From positions 124,001 through 188,000 of the forward strand of contig NZ_PVSS01000010.1 in the NCBI RefSeq assembly GCF_003025005.1: a stretch of DNA of 64,000 nt, in the 5' to 3' direction. A program made the position numbers and the translations under genes. Shown here one piece after another: positions 3,742 through 64,000 of this stretch. The DNA comes from Brumimicrobium mesophilum (GTDB taxonomy: Bacteria > Bacteroidota > Bacteroidia > Flavobacteriales_D > Crocinitomicaceae). The number at the start of each line of letters is the position of its first letter. Positions within the stretch are counted from its first letter, which is position 1. The notes under the pieces are model-generated. The model was not told where the DNA came from. It searched no databases and saw only the letters and a program-made list of their open reading frames with translations.

Positions 3742-5799
3742 ATGTATAAAATATTACAATTCTTATCTATAATTTTGTTGCTCGGATTCAATATTTCTGA
3801 AGCAAGGGCTTTGCTTGCTCCAGAGATTACTTGTATCACAACTGCACCAAATGGTGACTTAACAATTCACTGGAATCCAATTTTAGATCCGAATGGCGAA
3901 TTTGATAGTTACGACCTTTTCGGTTTAGGAGGTGGTTTTTACAATACTTACACAGATATCAACACAAATAGTGCAACAATTACGAATCCGGGAGCTGGAA
4001 TTGTAGATGGATATTATGTAACTGCAAATTCAAATGTACCTGGAAGCACTCCCCTATCTTCTGATACTTTAAAGAACATCTTTTTAGACTTAAATAACCC
4101 TGGAAATGGAGAAGCAGTTCTTTCATGGAACCAACCCTTCCCTACTCAACTCAGCACTTTTAATAATTACTTTCATATTTACAAGGAATTTCCTGCTGGG
4201 AATTGGACGTTAATTGATTCGGTACTTTACAACACAACGAACTATGCGGATTCGATTACAGTTTGTTCTGAATTTATCAGTTATCAAATTGTTTTACCAA
4301 CTTCAAATTGTGATTTCACCAGTAATATTCAAGGTGATATATTTGAAGACAAAATCGTTCCTAGTATTCCAGTAATTAGCACAGTTAACATCGATACTTT
4401 GACTAACGACATTACTGTTTCTTGGGATGTAAATAGTCAGGCAGACACGTACGGCTACGTTGTTTATCAAACAGATTTAAATGGTAATTTGGTTGAAATA
4501 GATACTGTTTGGGGAAGACCAAATACAACTTACACTCATTCCGAAAATTTAGAGAATGGTCCATTTCAGTATTCCATAGCGGCTTTCGATTCTTGTTATA
4601 CGACAAATGTGCCTCCAACCTTCCAAACATCTGCAAAAGCGAATCCGCACACAACAAATCAATTGAGTTCCTCGATTAATGCTTGTGATGAATTACTCAA
4701 TTTAACATGGACTGGATATTTAGGCTTTAACTCTGTGGACTTTCACAAGATTTTCATGAGAACAAATGGAGGAGCTTGGATCGAAATTGGTCAATCACAA
4801 TCAAATTCATTTAGCACAAATATTAATTTAGGTGATGAAATGATAGTTGTTGTTCAAACTTTCTCTAGTCAAGGTGAGACTTCTTTTTCGAATATTGATA
4901 CAGTAACCTTAATCTCTGGAAACGGAAATGAGCAGTCTTATTTGAGTGTTGCGACTGTTTATGGTAAAGAAATAGCGGTTAAACAAAGAATTACAAATTT
5001 AGGGAGTGCCGAAATAATTGAACTATATCGCTTAAATGAAAAAACACAAACTTTCGAAAAAATAGAGCAAAAGCATATTGGAAATAATAATGAAGTTGTT
5101 TTTATAGACAGTGATGTCGAAACAGACGAAAAATCCTATACCTACAAAACAAAATCTATTGATACTTGTCAATTGAAATCTGAATTCTCAGAAATTGGAA
5201 AAACCATGTTATTGAATGTGATCACCAAAGAGGAAACAGAAAGTCACACCTTACAATGGAATCCTTACACTAATTTCTTAGGAACAATTTCTAGTTACAG
5301 AGTTTATCGCTCAATAGATGGTTATTTTTCTCCTACTCCAATCGCGGTCCTTCCCTACAATACAAGAAGTTACACCGACACTGTCGATCAATTCAGTACA
5401 CCGAGCCAAGGAAAAGTTTGCTATTATGTTGAAGCAGTTGAAGCGAGTAATATGTTTGGATTACAAGAAACTAGTTTCAGTAATGTAGCTTGTCCGATTA
5501 TTGAACCAATTATATATATTCCAAATGCATTTACAGTAGGTGGTCAAAACCCAATATTCAAACCAATTACGAGTCATAACAGAATCGAAGAATATTTATT
5601 TGAGGTTTATGACCGATATGGTAGAATAATATTTAAAACTAAAGATCCTGAAGTAGGATGGGATGGTCAATTATTAGATAAAGATCATTTCGCCGGGGAA
5701 GGGGTATACGTTTATCGTCTTTCCCTAAGAGATGGTAACGGAATTGAGGTAGTCAAACATGGCTCTGTGACTTTGTTAGATTATCGGGAAGTAAAATAA
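3742..5799 (+). CDS. Secreted fibronectin III-like protein with T9SS type B sorting domain
   Basis: This 685-residue protein starts with a signal peptide (about residues 1-23). It is followed by several fibronectin type III-like beta-sandwich modules with recurring W(D/N/T)...Y..Y/I patterns. The last 90 residues begin with IYIPNAFT and contain VYDRYGRIIF, W(D)G and GVYVYRLSLRDGNG. That is the gliding-motility-associated C-terminal domain used as the T9SS type B sorting signal. The canonical NPNGDG stretch after IPNAFT is altered here to VGGQNPIFKP. The protein should be exported by Sec, then carried across the outer membrane by T9SS. It is monocistronic, divergent from the FG-GAP gene. The substrate or partner is unknown. 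Confidence 0.88.
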   Translation: MYKILQFLSIILLLGFNISEARALLAPEITCITTAPNGDLTIHWNPILDPNGEFDSYDLFGLGGGFYNTYTDINTNSATITNPGAGIVDGYYVTANSNVPGSTPLSSDTLKNIFLDLNNPGNGEAVLSWNQPFPTQLSTFNNYFHIYKEFPAGNWTLIDSVLYNTTNYADSITVCSEFISYQIVLPTSNCDFTSNIQGDIFEDKIVPSIPVISTVNIDTLTNDITVSWDVNSQADTYGYVVYQTDLNGNLVEIDTVWGRPNTTYTHSENLENGPFQYSIAAFDSCYTTNVPPTFQTSAKANPHTTNQLSSSINACDELLNLTWTGYLGFNSVDFHKIFMRTNGGAWIEIGQSQSNSFSTNINLGDEMIVVVQTFSSQGETSFSNIDTVTLISGNGNEQSYLSVATVYGKEIAVKQRITNLGSAEIIELYRLNEKTQTFEKIEQKHIGNNNEVVFIDSDVETDEKSYTYKTKSIDTCQLKSEFSEIGKTMLLNVITKEETESHTLQWNPYTNFLGTISSYRVYRSIDGYFSPTPIAVLPYNTRSYTDTVDQFSTPSQGKVCYYVEAVEASNMFGLQETSFSNVACPIIEPIIYIPNAFTVGGQNPIFKPITSHNRIEEYLFEVYDRYGRIIFKTKDPEVGWDGQLLDKDHFAGEGVYVYRLSLRDGNGIEVVKHGSVTLLDYREVK

Positions 5800-10216: not shown

Positions 10217-10657
10217 ATGAATAAATTAATTCACCTTTCGATTATCACCCTAATCATATCTTTATCATCATGTTCTAAGTGCGACCCTAGTAATAGCACA
10301 GAAGGAATAATTGTAGAAGACGCAATTGTAAGAATTATTGGCCAAGCACCTGAAGATTTATTCATAACGAATGCAACAAGTTATGATAAAAACATAGAGA
10401 TGAGTCTTGATGGTGGAGTAAGCTATAAGTCTGTTGATTTCAATAAATACTCTGTTTTAGGATTATCAACTTCTGCAACATGCAGTTCAGGTTACAATAG
10501 AAATGTTACAGTGAACAAAATAGAATCAACTGTTAATTATACGATATCAATTACAGAGTGTTCAACATGTAAAAGCAATACAACAATTCCCAATTATGTA
10601 TTGACTACTGCTGTTCCAGAGGAATACACTCCAGTATATGAAATAATTAGAAATTAA
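10217..10657 (+). CDS. Small hypothetical lipoprotein
   Basis: The 146-residue product begins with a lipoprotein signal peptide and lipobox (LSSC, Cys19). Four more cysteines (22, 89, 115, 118) include the pair CSTC, so disulfides or a small metal site are possible. No domain is recognised. It lies 37 bases after lptB on the same strand and ends only seven bases before the convergent phosphatase gene, leaving essentially no room for an independent terminator. The function is unknown. Confidence 0.75.
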   Translation: MNKLIHLSIITLIISLSSCSKCDPSNSTEGIIVEDAIVRIIGQAPEDLFITNATSYDKNIEMSLDGGVSYKSVDFNKYSVLGLSTSATCSSGYNRNVTVNKIESTVNYTISITECSTCKSNTTIPNYVLTTAVPEEYTPVYEIIRN

Positions 10658-10664
10658 TTTTTTT

Positions 10665-23066: not shown

Positions 23067-23073
23067 GGCTAGG

Positions 23074-23373
23074 TTAACCGCAAAGACCGGGGAGGTTTCC
23101 GCTAAGGTCGCGGAGAAGAAAGAAAACAAAGAAGAAAATGAGATTCCTCCATCACTAAAAATCATAGATTTTACGCAATGATCGGAATGACGATCGGTTG
23201 GTTTTAAGGTCAAAAAAGGGAGAAAAAATGAAGCATAGCTTCATTTTTTCTCCCTTTTTTGATAACCTTTTCCTTAGAGCCGTCATCCTGAAAAAGCGTA
23301 GCGATGAAGGATCTCTTTTTTGTTTAAAAAAATTGCGAACTCTGCGCCTTTAATTTGCTTTCTTTGCGGTTAA
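23074..23373. repeat. Nested inverted repeats filling a convergent spacer
   Basis: The gene-free stretch 23067-23369 is bounded by a perfect 12-bp inverted repeat: TTAACCGCAAAG at 23074-23085 and CTTTGCGGTTAA at 23362-23373. The right arm overlaps the helicase stop codon (23372-23370). Inside are GC-richer remnants (GGTCGCGGAGAA, GTCATCCTGA, AAGGATCTC) and a long hairpin, listed separately. The layout resembles a small non-autonomous or REP-like repeat; its copy number elsewhere is unknown. Confidence 0.6.
23210..23262. terminator. Very long bidirectional terminator hairpin
   Basis: A 25-bp perfect stem (23210-23234 with 23238-23262) closes on a three-base loop (ATA). The outer stem is A-run/T-run flanked GGGAG, so either strand yields a hairpin followed by a run of U. 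It lies between the convergent E1 and helicase genes and can terminate both. Confidence 0.75.
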
Positions 23374-26057: not shown

Positions 26058-26846
26058 ATGGGTTTCAAAGCAAAGCTAAGGTCAATCGTAGATGACAACA
26101 CCACCAAAAAAGGGAAAATCTTTGATTATACTATCCAAATTTTAATTTTCACCTCGTTAACTGCTTATGCAATTGAAACTTTGCCAGGAATTTCCGATTT
26201 AACGAAATCAATTCTATTTTGGATTGAAACGGTGTGTATAATAATTTTCACCGTGGAGTATGTAGTGAGAATTTTTATCGCAAAAAATCCATTTAAATAT
26301 ATTATTAGTTTTTATGGAATAATAGATTTATTGGCCATTTTACCCTTCTTTTTAGCCGTTAGATATGATACTATAGCATTACGGGCTTTTAGGATATTTA
26401 GAATATTCAGAGCATTTAAATTGATACGCTACAATAAAGCCTTAAACAGATTTCATTTGGTTGCAAAACTTATTCGAGAAGAGCTGATACTTTTCTTAAT
26501 CGTAACTGGAATTTTTATTTTCCTTGCTTCAGCAGGCATCTATCATTTCGAAAATGCGGCTCAACCGGAATTATTCACTTCCATCTTTCACAGCGGTTGG
26601 TGGGCAATTGTGACGCTAACTACTGTTGGATATGGAGATGTATACCCAATTACAGTTGGTGGCAAAATATTTACATTTTTTATTTTAATGGTTGGAGTGG
26701 GTATTGTAACAATTCCCGCCGGACTTGTGGCGAGTGCTTTAACAAAAGCTAGACAAATGGAAGAGGAAGCACTTTTGGAAGATATCAAAAGCAAGGAGTT
26801 AATTCAAGAGTCACAAAAGGAATCCGACAATTCAAATAATAATTAG
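26058..26846 (+). CDS. Voltage-gated-type potassium channel (6TM ion transporter)
   Basis: The 262-residue protein has the Kv-channel layout: S1 to S3 (about 25-95), an S4 with regularly spaced arginines at 109-124 (RAFRIFRIFRAFK), S5, a pore helix and the K+ selectivity filter TVGYGD (189-194), then S6. The short C-terminal tail is rich in glutamate and lysine. It should be an inner-membrane tetramer. Upstream of it is a palindromic element. Downstream, on the same strand, is a Crp/Fnr regulator after 32 bases, so the two may share a transcript. Confidence 0.92.
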   Translation: MGFKAKLRSIVDDNTTKKGKIFDYTIQILIFTSLTAYAIETLPGISDLTKSILFWIETVCIIIFTVEYVVRIFIAKNPFKYIISFYGIIDLLAILPFFLAVRYDTIALRAFRIFRIFRAFKLIRYNKALNRFHLVAKLIREELILFLIVTGIFIFLASAGIYHFENAAQPELFTSIFHSGWWAIVTLTTVGYGDVYPITVGGKIFTFFILMVGVGIVTIPAGLVASALTKARQMEEEALLEDIKSKELIQESQKESDNSNNN

Positions 26847-26878
26847 TCTTTTTCATTTATAACTTAAAACAACTTTCA

Positions 26879-27478
26879 ATGAAAGAATATAGTTTCAATG
26901 AGTTTTTAACCTCTAAGATTGACGTAGATCAAAAAAATTTATCAGAGCTTCTTAGTCAATGTCCTAGAAAGGAATTTCAAAAAGGTTCATTTTTAAACTT
27001 TTCTGGCGATTTATGCGATACTACTTTTTTTGTTGAAAAAGGATTACTTCGTCAATATTCTATAGACAATAAAGGTAAGGAACATATTCTTCAATTTGCT
27101 CCTGAAGGATGGTGGGTGACCGATAGAGAAAGTACGTTTTTTAATAAACCCTCAAAATATAATGTGGACGCTCTTGAAGACACGACAGTATTTATTCTTA
27201 AACAAGAATTACTAGATAAATTAGAGAAAGTAATACCAAACTTCACGGCTTTTAATAACGAATTGTTGAATAATCACATTCGTCACCTACAAAACAGGAT
27301 CACGTTGCTATTGAGTGCTACAGCAGAAGAGAGATATTTGACATTTACAAAAATGTATCCAGATATTCTATCAAGAGTTCCTCAACTAATGGTAGCTTCA
27401 TACTTAGGAATAACTCCTGAAAGCCTGAGTAGGGTGAGAAAAGAACTGGCTTCCAAAAGTTCAAATTCAAATTCTTAA
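26879..27478 (+). CDS. Crp/Fnr-family transcriptional regulator
   Basis: The 199-residue protein has a cyclic-nucleotide-binding-like jelly roll (about 25-125, with CPRKEFQKGSFLNFSGD) and a dimerisation helix. It ends in a helix-turn-helix (about 165-195, VASYLGITPESLSRVRKE). The phosphate-binding cassette of cAMP-binding members (RxS) is not clear, and no Fnr cysteine cluster is visible, so the ligand is unknown. It may regulate the adjacent pirin gene, as such pairs are common, but that is inference. Confidence 0.88.
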   Translation: MKEYSFNEFLTSKIDVDQKNLSELLSQCPRKEFQKGSFLNFSGDLCDTTFFVEKGLLRQYSIDNKGKEHILQFAPEGWWVTDRESTFFNKPSKYNVDALEDTTVFILKQELLDKLEKVIPNFTAFNNELLNNHIRHLQNRITLLLSATAEERYLTFTKMYPDILSRVPQLMVASYLGITPESLSRVRKELASKSSNSNS

Positions 27479-27530
27479 CATAGGTCAATGCACATAACTG
27501 TTTTCATACTTAACTTTACATTAAAAAAAA

Positions 27531-28406
27531 ATGAAAACAAAAAATATAGATTTTATGGTAGCTCCGAATACTCCACACTTTGTTGGAGATGGATTCAGAG
27601 TTCACAACTTTATTCCAGGAGTACCAAAAATGGATATGCAAAGCATGGATCCATTTATTATGATGGATTATAATTCAAAGTATAACTTCCCTCCTTCTGA
27701 AACCCCAAAAGGGGTTGGAGTACATCCACACAAGGGGTTTGAAACCGTTACGATTGCTTATAAAGGCAAAGTTGAGCACCACGACAGCAGTGGAGGTGGT
27801 GGAATTATTGGAGAAGGAGAAGTACAATGGATGACGGCCGGAAAAGGTGTTTTACACAAAGAGTTTCACGAAAAAGAATGGAGTAAAACTGGTGGTGAAT
27901 TTCAAATGGTTCAACTTTGGGTAAACCTTCCAAAAAAGGATAAAAACACAGATCCAAAATATCAAGCCGTAACAAGAGAATCGATAATCAAAGTGGAATT
28001 ACCAAGTAATGCTGGAACAATTGAAGTAATAGCTGGTGAATATAGCGGAACCAAAGGAACTGCTTCTACCTTCACTCCTATACATATGATGAATGCAAAG
28101 CTGAATAAGGGAGGGAAAGCTGAATTTAATTTCCCAGCGAATTACACAACGACTTTATTGGCTATCAAAGGTTCTTTTAAGCTGAATGGAAAAGAAGAAA
28201 TTCCAACAGATCATTTGGCATTAATGGCCAGAGATGGTGAGCATTTTGAAATCGAAGCTACAGAAGATGCAATAGTTTTGGTTTTAAGCGGAGATCCGCT
28301 CAATGAACCAATAGCAGCTCATGGACCATTTGTAATGAATACTAGAGAAGAATTAATTGAAGCTTTCCAAGACTTTAATGAAGGGAAATTCGGCGAACTT
28401 AATTAG
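27531..28406 (+). CDS. Pirin-family cupin protein
   Basis: The 291-residue protein has the two-cupin pirin fold. Metal ligands are visible in the first cupin: VHPHKGFETVT (two histidines and a glutamate) and VEHHDS, followed by GEVQWMTAGKGVLHKE. Bacterial pirins oxidise quercetin-like compounds or bind metabolic enzymes; its substrate here cannot be told. TAACTTTA about 13 bases before the ATG is a weak promoter-like box. The gene ends in a convergent spacer with the repeat family and a long hairpin. Confidence 0.9.
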   Translation: MKTKNIDFMVAPNTPHFVGDGFRVHNFIPGVPKMDMQSMDPFIMMDYNSKYNFPPSETPKGVGVHPHKGFETVTIAYKGKVEHHDSSGGGGIIGEGEVQWMTAGKGVLHKEFHEKEWSKTGGEFQMVQLWVNLPKKDKNTDPKYQAVTRESIIKVELPSNAGTIEVIAGEYSGTKGTASTFTPIHMMNAKLNKGGKAEFNFPANYTTTLLAIKGSFKLNGKEEIPTDHLALMARDGEHFEIEATEDAIVLVLSGDPLNEPIAAHGPFVMNTREELIEAFQDFNEGKFGELN

Positions 28407-28407
28407 G

Positions 28408-28698
28408 AATTACGAATTATCAATTACGAATTAAAAAGGCTTTTAAACGCTGACCATCTCTGGAGCAGTAAAAAAACGTACCACGAGATGAAATCTCACG
28501 GTAACATTTTTTGTGGTAGGAGGGGTTTTCAAAAAGGAGGGTTAAAAAATGATGACGCCGAGCCGTCATCATTTTTTAACCCTCCTTTTTGACTTTTGAA
28601 TTAAACTACAGTGTTACGTGGGATCACTTTAAATCTTGTTGGAAAACGGAGTGAGAAACCAAACAATTCGTAATTCATAATTAATCTAATTCGTAATT
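28408..28698. repeat. ATTACGAAT inverted-repeat element at a convergent junction (copy 1)
   Basis: ATTACGAAT occurs at 28409-28417 and 28423-28431, and its complement ATTCGTAAT at 28666-28674 and 28689-28697. The outer right copy contains the stop codon of the MpaB-like gene (28688-28686 borders it), so the last residues ITN are encoded by the repeat. The spacer 28407-28685 also holds a long hairpin and nothing else recognisable. Confidence 0.65.
28529..28592. terminator. Very long bidirectional terminator hairpin
   Basis: A 29-bp perfect stem (28529-28557 with 28564-28592) has a six-base loop (CCGAGC). The outer part is CAAAAAGGAGGG on one side and its complement CCCTCCTTTTTG on the other, giving a T-run on either strand. 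It lies between the convergent pirin and MpaB-like genes. Confidence 0.75.
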
Positions 28699-34609: not shown

Positions 34610-35677
34610 TTATAAAGTGTCAATATTATTCAAATCTTCGAAAGATTTTGTCAATCTTTTTACGAATGAAGCTTCACCTTCTCTAAGCCATTTACGTGGA
34701 TCGTAATACTTTTTGTTTGGTAAATCATCCCCTTCAGGATTACCAATTTGAGAACCTAAATAATCATTGTATTTCACCATATAATCACGAACACCTTCGT
34801 TGAATGCATATTGCATATCAGTATCAAGGTTCATTTTTATTACTCCGTAGCTAATTCCCTCACGAATTTCTTCTACTGTTGATCCAGATCCACCATGAAA
34901 TACGAAATCAACTGGATTAGCTCCTGTATTGTATTTCTCTTGAATAAATTCTTGAGAATTCATTAAAATTTTCGGTGTTAAAACAACATTACCTGGACGG
35001 TAAACACCATGAACATTTCCAAAAGCAGCAGCGACTGTAAATTTATCACTGATTTTTGACAATTCCTCAAAAGCATAAGCTACCTCCTCAGGTTGCGTGT
35101 ATAATTTTGAAACGTCAACATCGCTATTATCAACACCATCTTCTTCACCACCAGTGATTCCCAATTCGATTTCTAAAGTCATTCCTATTTTGCTCATGCG
35201 CTCAAGGTACTTTTTACAAGTTGCGATATTCTCTTCCAAAGGTTCATCCGATAAATCAATCATGTGAGAACTAAACAAAGGTTTACCAGTTCTTTTGAAC
35301 TCTTCTTCACTCGCATCCAACAATCCATCAATCCAAGGCAATACCTTTCTTGCGGCATGATCAGTATGTAAAATCACTGTAGCGCCATACAATTCAGCCA
35401 TTAAGTGAACGTGACGTGCTCCTGCAATACTACCTGCAATTGAAGCTCTTTCATTTTCATTAGAAAGGGATTTACCAGCATTAAATATACCTCCACCATT
35501 CGAAAATTGAATGATAATAGGTCCATTCACCTTGGACGCAGTTTCTAAACAAGCATTAATTGTGCTTGAGTTTACAACGTTTACAGCAGGTAAAGCAAAG
35601 TTATTCTCCTTTGCGAATTTGAATATTTCCTGAACTTCGTCTCCCGTTGCTACTCCGGGCTTTATTGAATGTGACAT
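34610..35677 (-). CDS. fbaA: Class II fructose-bisphosphate aldolase
   Basis: The enzyme reversibly splits fructose 1,6-bisphosphate in glycolysis using a divalent metal. I start it at ATG 35677 (355 residues, MSHSIKPGVATGDEV...), the usual length. The longer frame from 35722 begins upstream of a perfect promoter box (35708-35701). Metal and substrate motifs are seen: ILHTDHAARK, LEIELGITGGEEDG (partial), AFGNVHGVY, FHGGSGST and GVIKMNLDTD. Confidence 0.96.
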   Translation of the reverse strand: MSHSIKPGVATGDEVQEIFKFAKENNFALPAVNVVNSSTINACLETASKVNGPIIIQFSNGGGIFNAGKSLSNENERASIAGSIAGARHVHLMAELYGATVILHTDHAARKVLPWIDGLLDASEEEFKRTGKPLFSSHMIDLSDEPLEENIATCKKYLERMSKIGMTLEIELGITGGEEDGVDNSDVDVSKLYTQPEEVAYAFEELSKISDKFTVAAAFGNVHGVYRPGNVVLTPKILMNSQEFIQEKYNTGANPVDFVFHGGSGSTVEEIREGISYGVIKMNLDTDMQYAFNEGVRDYMVKYNDYLGSQIGNPEGDDLPNKKYYDPRKWLREGEASFVKRLTKSFEDLNNIDTL

Positions 35678-35700
35678 AATATAATGTTTTTTTAGGATAG

Positions 35701-35708
35701 CAAAGATA
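35701..35708 (-). promoter_or_regulatory. Putative -7 element of fbaA
   Basis: The minus strand reads TATCTTTG, an exact TAnnTTTG match, 24 bases upstream of the ATG at 35677. The spacing of the -33 TTG is unclear. The box supports the internal start codon. Confidence 0.5.
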
Positions 35709-35731
35709 GTAATTATAATCAAAAAGATAAT

Positions 35732-35760
35732 ATCAATTACGAATTAGAAAAATTACGAAT
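35732..35760. repeat. Two direct ATTACGAAT motifs upstream of fbaA (copy outside a convergent junction)
   Basis: ATTACGAAT lies at 35736-35744 and 35752-35760 in direct orientation, separated by seven bases. The 15-base string ATCAATTACGAATTA is shared exactly with 28419-28433. Here the motif is between divergent genes, not convergent ones. Confidence 0.6.
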
Positions 35761-35900
35761 TCATGGGCTTGGAAGCTTATGATTGAGAGAGTTCTTAGAT
35801 GAAACGATAGTAATAATCCGATTTTGTGTCTTTTATACTCTATATCCACCAAATCATGACAAATTATTTATATTTTCACTTTTTCAAAAAGATAAAACAA

Positions 35901-39632: not shown

Positions 39633-39640
39633 TATTCTTG
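39633..39640 (+). promoter_or_regulatory. Putative -7 element of tsaB
   Basis: TATTCTTG, one mismatch from TAnnTTTG, ends 18 bases before the ATG at 39659. It contains the TTG at 39638 that could otherwise be mistaken for the start codon. Confidence 0.4.
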
Positions 39641-39658
39641 CAAAACGAATTATATGAT

Positions 39659-40336
39659 ATGGCTAAATTTCTTCACATTGAAACCTCAACTAAAGTTTGC
39701 TCTGTTGCACTTTCCGAAAATGGGCAGTTAATTGATCTTCTAGAAGAAAGTTCTGACGCCTATATTCACTCCGAAAGGTTGACTGTTTTCATTGATCAAA
39801 TCTGTAAGCAAAACAATTGCAAATTGAATGAATTATCTGCTATTGTTGTCACTAGCGGACCAGGTTCGTACACAGGATTACGTATCGGAGTTTCAACAGC
39901 GAAAGGTTTATGTTATGCTTTGAGTATTCCATTAATAGCCGTTAACACCCTTGTAAGTATCGCCTCTTTAGCACAGAAAAAGCATCCTAACTCTTCAATT
40001 TGTGCGATGATTGATGCACGAAGAATGGAGGTTTTTTCTACGATCTTCGACGGCGATTTTAAAATAGTAAAAAGTCTTTCAGCGGACATTTTAGAGGAGA
40101 AAACCTACGAAGCGTTTTTACCAATTGTTGTATGCGGAGATGGAGCGAATAAAACCAAAGAAATTTGGGGGAATCGTGATTTACTAATTGATGAAACGAT
40201 TGTTTCAAGTGCCGCAGGACAAGTAGAAATTGCTTTTGAAAAATTCAAAAATGAAGAATTCGAAGATGTGGCGTATTTTGAACCAAAATATTTGAAAGAT
40301 TTTGTGGTTACACCTTCGAAGAAAAAGCCTTTTTAA
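39659..40336 (+). CDS. tsaB: tRNA N6-threonylcarbamoyladenosine biosynthesis protein TsaB
   Basis: TsaB works with TsaD and TsaE to put threonylcarbamoyl on A37 of ANN-decoding tRNAs. The 225-residue protein from ATG 39659 (MAKFLHIETSTKVCSVALSENG, partial) has the ASKHA actin-like fold: ETST at the first phosphate loop and VVTSGPGSYTGLRIGVSTAKGL (partial) in the helix. The alternative TTG start at 39638 lies in the promoter box, so I reject it. Length is normal for the family. Confidence 0.95.
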   Translation: MAKFLHIETSTKVCSVALSENGQLIDLLEESSDAYIHSERLTVFIDQICKQNNCKLNELSAIVVTSGPGSYTGLRIGVSTAKGLCYALSIPLIAVNTLVSIASLAQKKHPNSSICAMIDARRMEVFSTIFDGDFKIVKSLSADILEEKTYEAFLPIVVCGDGANKTKEIWGNRDLLIDETIVSSAAGQVEIAFEKFKNEEFEDVAYFEPKYLKDFVVTPSKKKPF

Positions 40337-40530
40337 TTGATAATTCGTGGGCTGGTTATGTGACTTTATGGAACGCGGGCCTTCAACGAGCTCAGTCACC
40401 GCAAAAATGACGGATCTTCGAACGTGGTCCAGAAAGCTTTCGGGATTCACTGATTTTCAATTTACGAGTAAAGCCTGCCTATGGATTTCACATCCAACAA
40501 TTCGTAATTCGTAATTAAAACATTCGTAAT
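40334..40530. repeat. ATTACGAAT-family repeat at a convergent junction (copy 2)
   Basis: ATTCGTAAT occurs at 40500-40508, 40507-40515 (overlapping) and 40522-40530, the last overlapping the stop codon of the membrane protein gene (40532-40530). A degenerate GATAATTCGTGGG follows the tsaB stop at 40342-40354. The central part is GC-richer with no gene. Confidence 0.6.
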
Positions 40531-40982
40531 TATTTATGTATAGCCGGTCTTAATTTCAAAAATCCTGCAAAAGCAAATCCTATAACCATCGTTAAATCTG
40601 CACAATGGTAAATCCAGAATTGATCTTCAAGCTGCATAAAGCTGGCTCTTGTTTCTACCGTTTGAATTACGAAATATAGATGCACAATCCATCCAGGGAA
40701 AAATGCGGAAACACTTGAGATGACGAATGAATTAAATGCTTCTTTCTTTTCTTCAACTGTTGAAATTTCACTCCTATTTAGAGTCGCTAACATTGCAATC
40801 GTAACTATCAGTAAAACCAAGTAAACCAATTTCAAAAAGGCTGGTTTCTCATAGTGAAAAATTGTATTACTGAAATAAGTTATGATTTGTTCTGAAGTTT
40901 GATCTGCGTAGAAAAGGAATAATCCAAAAACCAGCACAAGCATTAACCCTAAACGGTATTCTTTTTTAAAGAGGAAGCCCAA
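40530..40982 (-). CDS. Hypothetical four-helix membrane protein (DUF4199-like in size)
   Basis: The 150-residue product has four hydrophobic helices (about 10-27, 45-65, 85-107, 125-145) and no charged catalytic-looking motifs. I do not recognise the family; DUF4199 proteins have this kind of topology but the match is only by shape. It lies five bases after the gene for the asparagine-synthetase-like secreted protein and is probably co-transcribed. Its stop codon is inside the ATTACGAAT repeat. Confidence 0.7.
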   Translation of the reverse strand: MGFLFKKEYRLGLMLVLVFGLFLFYADQTSEQIITYFSNTIFHYEKPAFLKLVYLVLLIVTIAMLATLNRSEISTVEEKKEAFNSFVISSVSAFFPGWIVHLYFVIQTVETRASFMQLEDQFWIYHCADLTMVIGFAFAGFLKLRPAIHK

Positions 40983-40987
40983 AATTT

Positions 40988-42247
40988 CTATGTTTTACGT
41001 TTTTTCTTCTTCGCAGCTGGAAAAAGAACATTATTTAAAATCAAACGGTAACCTGGAGAGTTAGGATGTAAACTCAAATCCGTATGTGGATCTCCTACTC
41101 TGTGCTGGTAATCCTCTGGATCGTGACCTCCGTAGAAAGTCCAAGTTCCTAATCCCAATTCTCCATGAACATATTTTACAGTCTCAATCGCTTTGGATTC
41201 ACCCATAATTGTTACTGAAGATTTAATGTAATCCTTCACAAAATCGGTTGTTTGCCCGTAGAAATTTTTAAGAATCGTGGTGTGATTTTGAGTCAACATC
41301 GTTGGAACCACATCCCATTTTGCAGAGAATTCGAAGAGCGTAAAAATATCATCTTTTTCTCCAATTCTTCTGTGCCTATTTGTTCCATCAATCGTAGAAT
41401 ATTCGTATTCCATTGGATTTTCAATAATTTCAAAATTTTCAAAAGCCAAAGTCTTATTAAAATCTAATTTTGATTTGTAATTAGGATCTACTCCATCACC
41501 ATCAAACATTTGTTCGGCGATATCGGTTTCATGCGCAGCTAGGGCAATATCAAAACTATCTGTCCCACTACACATGGTAAACAAAAAACCACCAGAGAAA
41601 ACGTAACTTTTGATTGTTTCAGCAACTGCCAATTTCATATCTGAAACTTTGGAAAACCCTAAACTTTGAGCACTAGCTTCTAAAGTAGCCACCTGTTCCC
41701 TATACCACTGTGCATTTCTATAGGCAGAATAAAATTTTCCATATTGACCAGTGAAATCTTCATGATGCAAATGCAACCAATCATATTCTTTTAATCCGCC
41801 AGCAATTACTGTACTATCATAAACTTTATCATAAGGAATTTCGGCGTATTCCATAACTAAAGTTACGGCATCATCCCAAGGTTGCTTCCCTCCAGGTGTG
41901 TAAACAGCAATTTTTGGAGCAACTTCTAACTGCACCACTTCTTGATTTACTTCAGGAGAAGCAATATTTCGTTTAATATTATTGACTTGACCATCGGCAA
42001 CAATTTCATAGCTCACTCCACGAATTACCAATTCATTTTCGATCGCTGAAAGATGCGGCAAAAGAAAAGAACCACCTCTATAATTGAGCAGCCATTCCAT
42101 AGTTACACCATTCTCCAACACAAAATAAGCAATACCGTAAGCCTTCAAATGATTCGCTTGCGCTTTATCCATTGGCACTAAAATCGAAGATGCAAATAAT
42201 TGTGCACTAAAAAAAAGTGTGATTATAATCGTAAAAATATATCGCAT
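40988..42247 (-). CDS. Secreted GATase-like protein of the Bacteroidota 'asparagine synthetase B' group
   Basis: The 419-residue protein has a signal peptide (1-19). The mature N-terminus SSILVPMDKAQANHLKAYGIAYFVLENG (partial) resembles proteins that databases label asparagine synthetase B in Bacteroidota. It lacks the Cys2 nucleophile and the SGGxDS pyrophosphatase motif of true AsnB. From about residue 110 it shows an amidotransferase-like sandwich (KIAVYTPGGKQPWDDAVTLVM, partial) with FSGGFLFTMCSGTDSFD (about 215-235). I see a conserved secreted protein of unknown activity and consider the database name doubtful. The C-terminus is basic (AAKKKKRKT). Confidence 0.7.
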   Translation of the reverse strand: MRYIFTIIITLFFSAQLFASSILVPMDKAQANHLKAYGIAYFVLENGVTMEWLLNYRGGSFLLPHLSAIENELVIRGVSYEIVADGQVNNIKRNIASPEVNQEVVQLEVAPKIAVYTPGGKQPWDDAVTLVMEYAEIPYDKVYDSTVIAGGLKEYDWLHLHHEDFTGQYGKFYSAYRNAQWYREQVATLEASAQSLGFSKVSDMKLAVAETIKSYVFSGGFLFTMCSGTDSFDIALAAHETDIAEQMFDGDGVDPNYKSKLDFNKTLAFENFEIIENPMEYEYSTIDGTNRHRRIGEKDDIFTLFEFSAKWDVVPTMLTQNHTTILKNFYGQTTDFVKDYIKSSVTIMGESKAIETVKYVHGELGLGTWTFYGGHDPEDYQHRVGDPHTDLSLHPNSPGYRLILNNVLFPAAKKKKRKT

Positions 42248-61866: not shown

Positions 61867-63390
61867 ATGCCATTTTTTGGAAATATCATAAAAGGACTTA
61901 TCGATTTTAAAGACTATGTCACTAGCGAAGTTGATCCTGTAAAAGCACAAGAAGAAGTGCTAAAGGACTTATTATCACAAGCACAGAACACAGCATTTGG
62001 AAGACATTTTTCTTTTCAAGAAATCTTAAATGCGGATAATATTAAGGAAGCTTTTTCTTCAAAAATCCCTTATTTCGATTATAACAAAATCAATGATGAG
62101 TGGTGGCACCGTTACCATGAAGGAGAAATAAACGTGACTTGGCCCGGAATCCCAAGATTTTTTGCCTTAAGTTCTGGAACAACTGGAAAAACCAGCAAAC
62201 GAATTCCAATCACCGATGAAATGATTGATGCTATTAAACAAGCTGGAATAAGACAAATTACAGCTTTAAGCAACTTTGACTTGGAAGCAGAATTATTTGA
62301 AAAAGACATTATGATGCTAGGAAGCTCGACCAACTTAAGGGAGAACAATAATTTCCTAGAAGGTGAAATCAGTGGAATCAGTACAAGCAATATTCCGTTT
62401 TGGTTCAAAGGATATTACAAGCCTGGAGAAGATATTTCAAAAATAGATAATTGGGAAGAAAGAGTTCAAGCGATTGCAGAAAATGCACATACCTGGGATA
62501 TTGGTGCAATAAGCGGAATTCCAACTTGGATTGAATTGATGATTAAAAAGGTAATCGAGCACAATAATCTGAACAACATTCACGAAATATGGCCAAACTT
62601 TGAAGTCTATACTTCTGGAGGAGTCGCTTTCGGAACTTATGAAAAAAGTTTTAATGCATTGTTGGGACATCCGATTACAGTAATTGACACTTATTTTGCT
62701 TCTGAAGGATTTATCGCTTCTCAAACCCGACCTGAAACAGATGCAATGCAATTATTAGTAGACAATGGAATTTATTTTGAATTTGTACCATTTGAAGCAG
62801 ATTATATTCAACATGACGGATCATTAATTCCTGATGCGCCTTCAATTGGTTTGAAAGATGTACAATTGGGACAAGAATATGTGCTAATTATGTCTACTGT
62901 TAGTGGTGCTTGGAGATATGAAATTGGTGATACCATTGAATTTACAAATGTTGAAAGAGCTGAAATAAAAATCACCGGAAGAACAAAATTCTTCTTGAAT
63001 GTTGTTGGTTCTCAGTTATCCGTAAATAAACTTGACGATGCAATTCAGCATTTAGAAAATGAATTCTCAACTAAAATCACAGAATACAATATTTGCGCAA
63101 AACGAGGAGAAGATGGTGAATTTTATCATTTTTGGTATATCGGAACAGAAGACAATTTAGACAGTGAAAAAGCGGCCAATTCTATTGACGAATTCCTTCA
63201 GGAAAGAAATAAAAACTTTAGAGTGGCCAGAGGAAAAGCTTTAAAAGGCTTGAAAGTAAAAATCGTTCCTACTGCAGTTTTCCATGAATGGTCTGGAGCC
63301 AACAAAAAGAAAGGTGGACAGGTTAAATTGGAGAAAGTGATGGAGGAAGAGAAGTTTGAAGAATGGGAGGAGTTTGTAAAAGGAAAATAA
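61867..63390 (+). CDS. GH3-family acyl-adenylating protein
   Basis: GH3 enzymes adenylate carboxylic acids and join them to amino acids; plant members conjugate auxin and jasmonate, and bacterial ones are mostly uncharacterised. The 507-residue protein has the ATP motif LSSGTTGKTSKRIP (101-114), YTSGGVAFGTYEKSF and DTYFASEGFIA in the middle. The later YRYEIGDTIEFT and KITGRTKFFLNVVGSQLSV segments (both partial) are typical of the superfamily. Its stop codon touches the ATTACGAAT repeat. The substrate is unknown. Confidence 0.9.
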   Translation: MPFFGNIIKGLIDFKDYVTSEVDPVKAQEEVLKDLLSQAQNTAFGRHFSFQEILNADNIKEAFSSKIPYFDYNKINDEWWHRYHEGEINVTWPGIPRFFALSSGTTGKTSKRIPITDEMIDAIKQAGIRQITALSNFDLEAELFEKDIMMLGSSTNLRENNNFLEGEISGISTSNIPFWFKGYYKPGEDISKIDNWEERVQAIAENAHTWDIGAISGIPTWIELMIKKVIEHNNLNNIHEIWPNFEVYTSGGVAFGTYEKSFNALLGHPITVIDTYFASEGFIASQTRPETDAMQLLVDNGIYFEFVPFEADYIQHDGSLIPDAPSIGLKDVQLGQEYVLIMSTVSGAWRYEIGDTIEFTNVERAEIKITGRTKFFLNVVGSQLSVNKLDDAIQHLENEFSTKITEYNICAKRGEDGEFYHFWYIGTEDNLDSEKAANSIDEFLQERNKNFRVARGKALKGLKVKIVPTAVFHEWSGANKKKGGQVKLEKVMEEEKFEEWEEFVKGK

Positions 63391-63540
63391 TTACGAATTA
63401 GAGGGAATTACGAATTATTTAAAAATTGGACCACTAGTCAAAGACTCGCGGTAGCCCTATTTTTAATTGCTTTGAGAAAGTTAATGTAGTTCAACAAATT
63501 CGTAATTAGCTGCGCTGAGGGCTAAAGCCGTTCGTAATTA
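63388..63540. repeat. ATTACGAAT inverted-repeat element at a convergent junction (copy 3)
   Basis: ATTACGAAT occurs at 63390-63398 and 63407-63415 and the complement ATTCGTAAT at 63498-63506, with a variant TTCGTAATTA at 63531-63540. The first copy begins in the stop codon of the GH3 gene. Between them lies GC-richer sequence including GCTGCGCTGAGGGC, with no gene. Confidence 0.6.
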
Positions 63541-63548
63541 ATTGATCT

Positions 63549-64000
63549 CTACTTTTTAATAAGCTTACGTGTAATTTGATTTTTTCCATTTGAAAATCTA
63601 CAGAAATAAATTCCATTTTTTAACTCAGAAATATCTATCGAATTCTTGAACTCTCCAAAATTTTGATTGGAATATTGCACTGTTTTTATAATCTTTCCAG
63701 ATACATCTAAAATTTCAAGATTTAAACTGTTCGTTTTATCATTTAAGGTGAAATTGATAAGGTTATTCGTTGGATTTATGTAGAGGTTAATTAAGTTTAA
63801 GTCCATACCTTCATTTACTATTCCTAAAGTTTCTTCAACTCTAAAAGTGATGGTATCCGCATCTCGAAAACTAAAATTTTGAAGATCATTATCTCCTGAA
63901 GGAGAGCTATTAACCATCAGTTTAGCAATAATCGAATAAGTCCCTTCTTGTAGCATGCCAATAGAAATAGAATCTTCTAAAAATGTAGGCGAACTTAATC
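63549..64000 (-). CDS. T9SS type A cargo protein, 3' end only (5' beyond window)
   Basis: The minus-strand frame is open from the stop at 63549 to the window edge, so at least 150 residues of the C-terminus are present and the start is outside. An ATG at 63956 is internal, because the frame reads on as LSSPTFLEDSISIGMLQEGTY. The last 90 residues (LYINPTNNLINFTL..., LDVSGKIIKTV, GIYFCRFSNGKNQITRKLIKK, partial) are the T9SS type A sorting domain. A beta-sandwich precedes it. The substrate is unknown. Confidence 0.85.
   Translation of the reverse strand, partial: LSSPTFLEDSISIGMLQEGTYSIIAKLMVNSSPSGDNDLQNFSFRDADTITFRVEETLGIVNEGMDLNLINLYINPTNNLINFTLNDKTNSLNLEILDVSGKIIKTVQYSNQNFGEFKNSIDISELKNGIYFCRFSNGKNQITRKLIKK

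Follow-up and report, generated by a model that had tools for sequence, protein, structure and literature searches.

The locus raises the question of why a short word, ATTACGAAT, recurs at the ends of convergent genes and coincides there with stop codons. The DNA analysed here (the window, 64,000 nucleotides) belongs to Brumimicrobium mesophilum, which we take to be a marine Bacteroidota bacterium of the genus Brumimicrobium. In the window, 13 exact copies of ATTACGAAT were counted on both strands, against 0.93 expected and a maximum of 5 in shuffled sequences. The earlier note on this DNA had listed twelve of them, all of which are present; the thirteenth (3979-3987, within ORF 3742-5799) is an unremarkable match inside a gene. 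Three convergent gaps contain ten of the twelve, in line with the majority claimed for these junctions, and a divergent gap on the 5' side of a class II aldolase gene contains the other two (35736 and 35752). The statement that all copies are intergenic holds for most of them, the exceptions being the in-gene copy, the copy at 28689-28697, which encodes the C-terminal residues ITN of an MpaB-like protein as had been noticed before, the copy at 40522-40530, which touches a stop codon, and the copy at 63390, which shares one base with the stop of a GH3-domain gene.

The first convergent gap follows an ion channel gene, a gene for a cyclic-nucleotide-binding protein and a pirin-like gene in a row (26058-28406). 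Its left arm (GAATTACGAATTATCAATTACGAATTA; 28402..28432, plus strand) is a degenerate heptad array that runs outward from the stop of the pirin-like gene (27531-28406) and is also found on the orthologous edges of B. glaciale, B. aurantiacum and an uncultured Brumimicrobium. The right arm (28665..28698, minus strand) is inverted relative to the left one and overlaps the C-terminal codons and the stop (28686-28688) of the MpaB-like gene. Between the arms, and distinct from the arrays, lies a bidirectional intrinsic terminator (28528..28593), a near-perfect 29-bp hairpin with a U-tail on both strands (RNA fold -44.8 kcal/mol, z = -11.8; terminator scan matches on both strands). The hairpin has the sequence AAAAAGGAGGGTTAAAAAATGATGACG...; hairpins like it, of the form AAAAAGGGAG...CTCCCTTTTTT, were seen in further convergent gaps, for example at C2:147066 and C1:49613. 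In the divergent gap, an array of two copies with a spacing of 16 (35735..35761, plus strand) runs outward at the 5' edge of the minus-strand class II aldolase gene (34610-35722) and lies just upstream of a putative promoter, a TATCTTTG / TTG pair.

The second convergent gap carries a degenerate left arm of another heptad type (AATTGATAATTCG; 40333..40350, plus strand) at the 3' edge of a TsaD-domain gene (39638-40336), an edge that bears a clean (AATTGAT)n array in B. glaciale. Its right arm (40499..40531, minus strand) comprises three copies, two of them overlapping at a 7-nt period, touches the stop of ORF 40530-40982, and is nearly identical in B. glaciale and of the (AATTATG)n type in the uncultured Brumimicrobium. 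This ORF is the first of two adjacent minus-strand ORFs of 150 and 419 aa without Pfam match (40530-42247) and ends at the repeat; the orthologue from another Brumimicrobium seems to have other terminal codons, likewise repeat-derived. In the third convergent gap, the left arm (63388..63416, plus strand; two copies, spacing 17) lies directly at the stop of the GH3-domain gene (61867-63390), and the right arm (63497..63541, minus strand), formed by the copy at 63498 and a degenerate copy (GTTCGTAATT, ~63532-63541), adjoins a secretion-tail gene (63549-63956). Part of this region (63400-63545), about 70 bp comprising TTGTTGAACTACATTAACTTTCTCAAAG and its flanks, recurs ~3 kb downstream (C2:190655) and in a B. 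glaciale convergent gap. The earlier description of a dispersed repeat that is concentrated at convergent gene ends, with copies inverted across the two sides, was correct.

A genome-wide count and a comparison with shuffled sequence, both suggested by that note, established that the excess is real. The placement near stop codons is real as well. The B. mesophilum genome, 89 contigs with 3.88 Mb in total and a GC content of ~34% in the parts analysed, contains 170 copies of ATTACGAATT, compared with 12 of the reversed-word control. Genomes of the genus contain 22 to 322 copies, the most being in B. glaciale, with reversed controls of 3 to 25. In an unbiased 9-mer scan of two species, ATTACGAAT was the top over-represented intergenic 9-mer, and assignment by gap half gave 68 outward and 8 inward copies. 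Its density is 2.0 copies per kb in convergent, 0.75 in tandem and 0.16 in divergent gaps. The 17-mer ATTACGAATTACGAATT was detected in 17 of 395 Bacteroidota genomes. An Rfam gathering search of the window returned no match, and a search of the open-access literature for the letters of the repeat yielded nothing relevant among the papers listed.

The word itself belongs to degenerate heptamer arrays, (AATTACG)n and its variants, in which it is the junction word. Intergenic similarity at lags of 7, 14 and 21 exceeds that of a first-order Markov model 5-9 fold in B. mesophilum and 13-23 fold in B. glaciale, and copy spacings of 7 and 14-17 predominate. Array statistics, which cover 0.82 Mb of B. 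mesophilum and 0.95 Mb of B. glaciale, identified further units de novo (AATTGAT, AATTGAC, AATTATG, TTAATGT, TTAGATG, GTGAAAA and one AGTTATC); the last of these, read outward, is TAACTGA on the other strand, so that an array of this type is present but rare. Among the 56 arrays that have at least two copies, 37 fall between genes, 17 extend across a gene end and two are located in the final 15-51 nt of an ORF, in sense orientation. An artefact of ORF calling was excluded, because these two are the only multi-copy arrays inside called ORFs. The distance from array to gene edge ranges from a few to about 45 nt. Some arrays stand alone, others form inward-facing pairs with an unrelated, rapidly changing core between them, and beyond the last copy no sequence is common to different sites.

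The rule that these arrays obey is one of polarity and not of stop codons: an array read 5'-ATTACGAAT-3' runs away from the adjoining gene, at 3' and 5' ends alike. With one array counted per edge, 81 edges in B. mesophilum and B. glaciale are outward and 3 inward, including 17 and 1 at 5' edges (genes were called as simple longest ORFs, so that start codons are approximate); an outward array at a 5' edge is antisense to its gene, and the rule therefore concerns the gene edge, not transcription. In B. mesophilum, 77 intergenic copies out of 81 are oriented outward with respect to the closest gene, and across six species the edge polarity is 84:4. When the bases of ATTACGAAT were permuted 400 times, the permuted words marked a median of 2 and a maximum of 25 edges, none of them comparable to the real word with its 84 edges. 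Other Bacteroidota genera contributed 17 outward and 2 inward arrays, the exceptions being one gap that is filled entirely and one mid-gap array; with mid-gap and gap-filling cases left out, the ratio is 15 to 0. Repeats of GGAACGCGG within the same gaps are outward in 21 cases and inward in none, whereas the sister words AATTGATAA and AATTATGAA, both also commoner by chance, show a less strict polarity. A function as a guard with stops in all frames (the inward strand of AATTACG arrays contains TAA in every frame) was rejected, since the GGAACGCGG repeats share the polarity without having that property. A second degenerate repeat, GGAACGCGGATGACGCGGAT, found in the same gaps (40365-40450, degenerate; L035 ~10464-10663), has this 21:0 outward polarity, and a third, AACCGCAAAG..CGCAAAG / CTTTGCG (23067-23369), forms large inward-facing pairs in convergent gaps.

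The proposal that the repeat targets gene ends and coincides with stop codons is accurate for 3' edges, where the first copy overlaps the stop or lies within 3 nt of it in 27 of 64 arrays. Six 3'-edge arrays begin exactly 12 nt before the end of the stop codon, which yields ITN-stop if the frame matches, and ten share one base with TAA. As a general rule the proposal fails, since 5' edges are occupied with the same outward polarity. No stop-codon preference was seen at armed edges, TAA accounting for 61% there and in the background. The association with stops arises because arrays begin at, or hug, gene edges in general, 5' edges included.

Relatives, one genome per species, were found via the pirin-like protein (B. 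glaciale IC156, B. aurantiacum N62, B. oceani C305 and the uncultured Brumimicrobium). For 15 armed edges with an orthologous edge in B. glaciale, 10 carry the same unit there and at least 4 of the other 5 a different tandem repeat; the same gene edge is armed in the sister species in about 14 of 15 cases, the unit sometimes being a different heptamer. Examples of such an exchange from B. mesophilum to B. glaciale are AATTACG to AATTGAT at C3:71760 and C2:101281. Edges with period-7 repeats coincide between the two species in 7 instances, against 1.1 expected, and other periods are rare. In B. aurantiacum and the uncultured species, only 20-25 nt separate the two called stops that bound the pirin/MpaB gap; this gap consists there of little besides an inverted array and includes the perfect palindrome CAATTACGAATTCGTAATTG. 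It measures 142 nt in B. glaciale and ~280 nt in B. mesophilum, with the same arms around unrelated cores. The divergent aldolase/peptidase gap has its array in B. mesophilum and B. glaciale and lacks it in B. aurantiacum and the uncultured Brumimicrobium. Orthologous gaps compared for target-site duplication are strongly diverged, with proteins ~80-90% identical.

We consider it about an even bet (probability roughly 0.5) that the arrays are made by strand-polar, 7-nt reiterative copying at gene-flanking DNA ends and are purged from coding sequence. Arrays would be built in place: where the gap contains a break or a stalled end, slipped or templated synthesis would lengthen, in 7-nt steps, the strand whose 3' end faces away from the gene, copying either the array already there or one elsewhere in the genome. 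Sequence entering genes would be removed by selection, gaps would grow from their edges inward, and other DNA would accumulate in mid-gap. Arrays would touch stops because nothing but the gene edge sets them a firm limit, and an array that overruns this edge could supply the last codons and the stop (ITN-stop). Local strand-polar synthesis combined with purging would account for single and paired arms, the variable core and arrays that overrun stops. Two exact arms were found in only 8 of 39 armed gaps of B. mesophilum, so that either paired-end events are the exception or one of the two arms mostly disappears. None of the ten Brumimicrobium genomes searched contains Ku, which leaves a classical NHEJ filler route unsupported, and the number of reverse-transcriptase (RVT_1) genes does not track the arrays across the genus (B. 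aurantiacum: 75 copies, no reverse transcriptase; the relative G007: 13 matches, 22 copies). Several of the 13 matches in G007, which has few arrays, are apparently identical. Counted against the copying model is that ordinary slippage yields no polarity.

Under a rival explanation, AT-rich seeds in neutral DNA would expand by plain replication slippage and be purged from genes, and the polarity would stem from some sequence asymmetry of gene edges. A period of seven is reported more often than any other for long bacterial repeats (summary in PMC4679880), and the arrays are degenerate and confined to non-coding DNA or last codons, as this explanation would have it. It is nonetheless unlikely, as 3' and 5' edges, which differ in sequence context, share unit and polarity, over 80 edges and further genera showing this, and as stop-codon usage at armed edges is unchanged.

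Strict polarity is not well explained by a terminator or an ordinary mobile element. For the latter, the arms could be the terminal inverted repeats of a MITE, or a REP/BIME-like element, with mobility provided by a transposase of the host genome, for instance a REP-associated tyrosine transposase. The inward-facing arms around a core in several gaps, the REP-like bias towards convergent gaps, the ~70 bp core common to two B. mesophilum places and one B. glaciale gap, and the existence of Y1_Tnp genes in the genus all speak for such an element. An all-against-all comparison of cores, however, revealed no sharing beyond the ~70 bp case, most gaps have one arm, and the unit sequence is exchanged at fixed sites. 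Moreover, no Y1_Tnp locus examined in B. mesophilum or B. glaciale is flanked by the repeat, only one of twelve such loci in the genus (in another species) holds a single copy, and the number of Y1_Tnp genes bears no clear relation to copy number across the genus. We regard this origin as improbable.

An equally improbable account is that of a selected 3'-UTR element of convergent genes, acting as a terminator, mRNA-end or translation-stop element. The peak of density in convergent gaps, the 3'-edge arrays that touch, overlap or nearly touch a stop and the conservation of position between species would fit it. On the other hand, 17 of 81 outward edges are 5' edges with the array antisense to the gene, the unit differs between species, true bidirectional terminators are separate, with the array placed between stop and terminator in several gaps, and only 1 of 4 single arms that were folded surpasses its shuffles. 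A terminator role, one form of the transcription link envisaged in the earlier note, is not supported in view of these separate terminators and mostly poor folds. The element itself forms no GC-rich hairpin with a U-run, and the terminators are separate sequences; no evidence of a regulatory function of the arrays was seen.

Several known systems resemble the arrays. REP/BIME sequences are dispersed and extragenic, favour 3' ends and convergent gaps and form inverted pairs, all of which applies here; unlike these imperfect palindromes of 20-40 nt that form stem-loops, the arrays are tandem with period 7, fold no better than shuffles in 3 of 4 arms and lack RAYT adjacency. DNA uptake sequences likewise are short over-represented words with inverted pairs at gene ends, but the present word has only 170 copies, nearly none of them in coding sequence, a tandem period of 7 and a variable unit. 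The STRR sequences of cyanobacteria form heptanucleotide, intergenic, degenerate families. To our knowledge, no edge polarity has been described for STRR or for long simple sequence repeats (LSSR). LSSR repeats are intergenic with a 7-nt period (summarised in PMC4679880), and both types have period, intergenic location and degeneracy in common with the Brumimicrobium arrays while differing in unit.

We file the arrays with the known intergenic heptamer repeats of the TAACTGA type, as a variant with a different unit. MacGregor (2015) described intergenic TAACTGA direct repeats in 'Maribeggiatoa', Cyanobacteria and some Bacteroidetes, with 2-6 copies per set and ~170 sets per genome, and interpreted them as possible translational signals (PMC4679880). 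According to the parts of that paper cited here, they too are tandem heptamer sets that are almost all intergenic, often touch a start or stop, occur sporadically across phyla and are split by related 7-mers. They lie mostly at 5' edges, whereas the dominant unit here is AATTACG, mostly at 3' edges. Table 1 for 'Maribeggiatoa' gives 147 sets toward the start codon, 12 toward the stop, 5 'other' and 6 at contig ends; by our own re-reading from the gene outward, 159 of 170 sets follow the same one-polarity rule. In the present genomes, several units obey a joint 5'/3' rule and are exchanged at conserved positions, a rule not stated in the cited parts of PMC4679880.

A bolder version of end copying, which we hold to be very unlikely, is that a DNA-end maintenance activity adds heptamers to the outward 3' strand at intergenic breaks, similar to telomere addition, and that rejoining leaves inward-facing arrays around filler. 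If this were true, the heptamer repeats across Bacteroidota, Cyanobacteria and Beggiatoaceae would be the scars of that activity.

The arrays caution against reading every repeat close to a stop codon as a termination signal, and they show that a repeat can supply the final codons of a protein. Earlier accounts treat heptamer repeats as candidate regulatory signals or as leftovers of slippage. Neither view readily yields a polarity that is shared by both gene ends, by more than one unit and by several families, and the polarity rule provides a quantitative test for any proposed mechanism.
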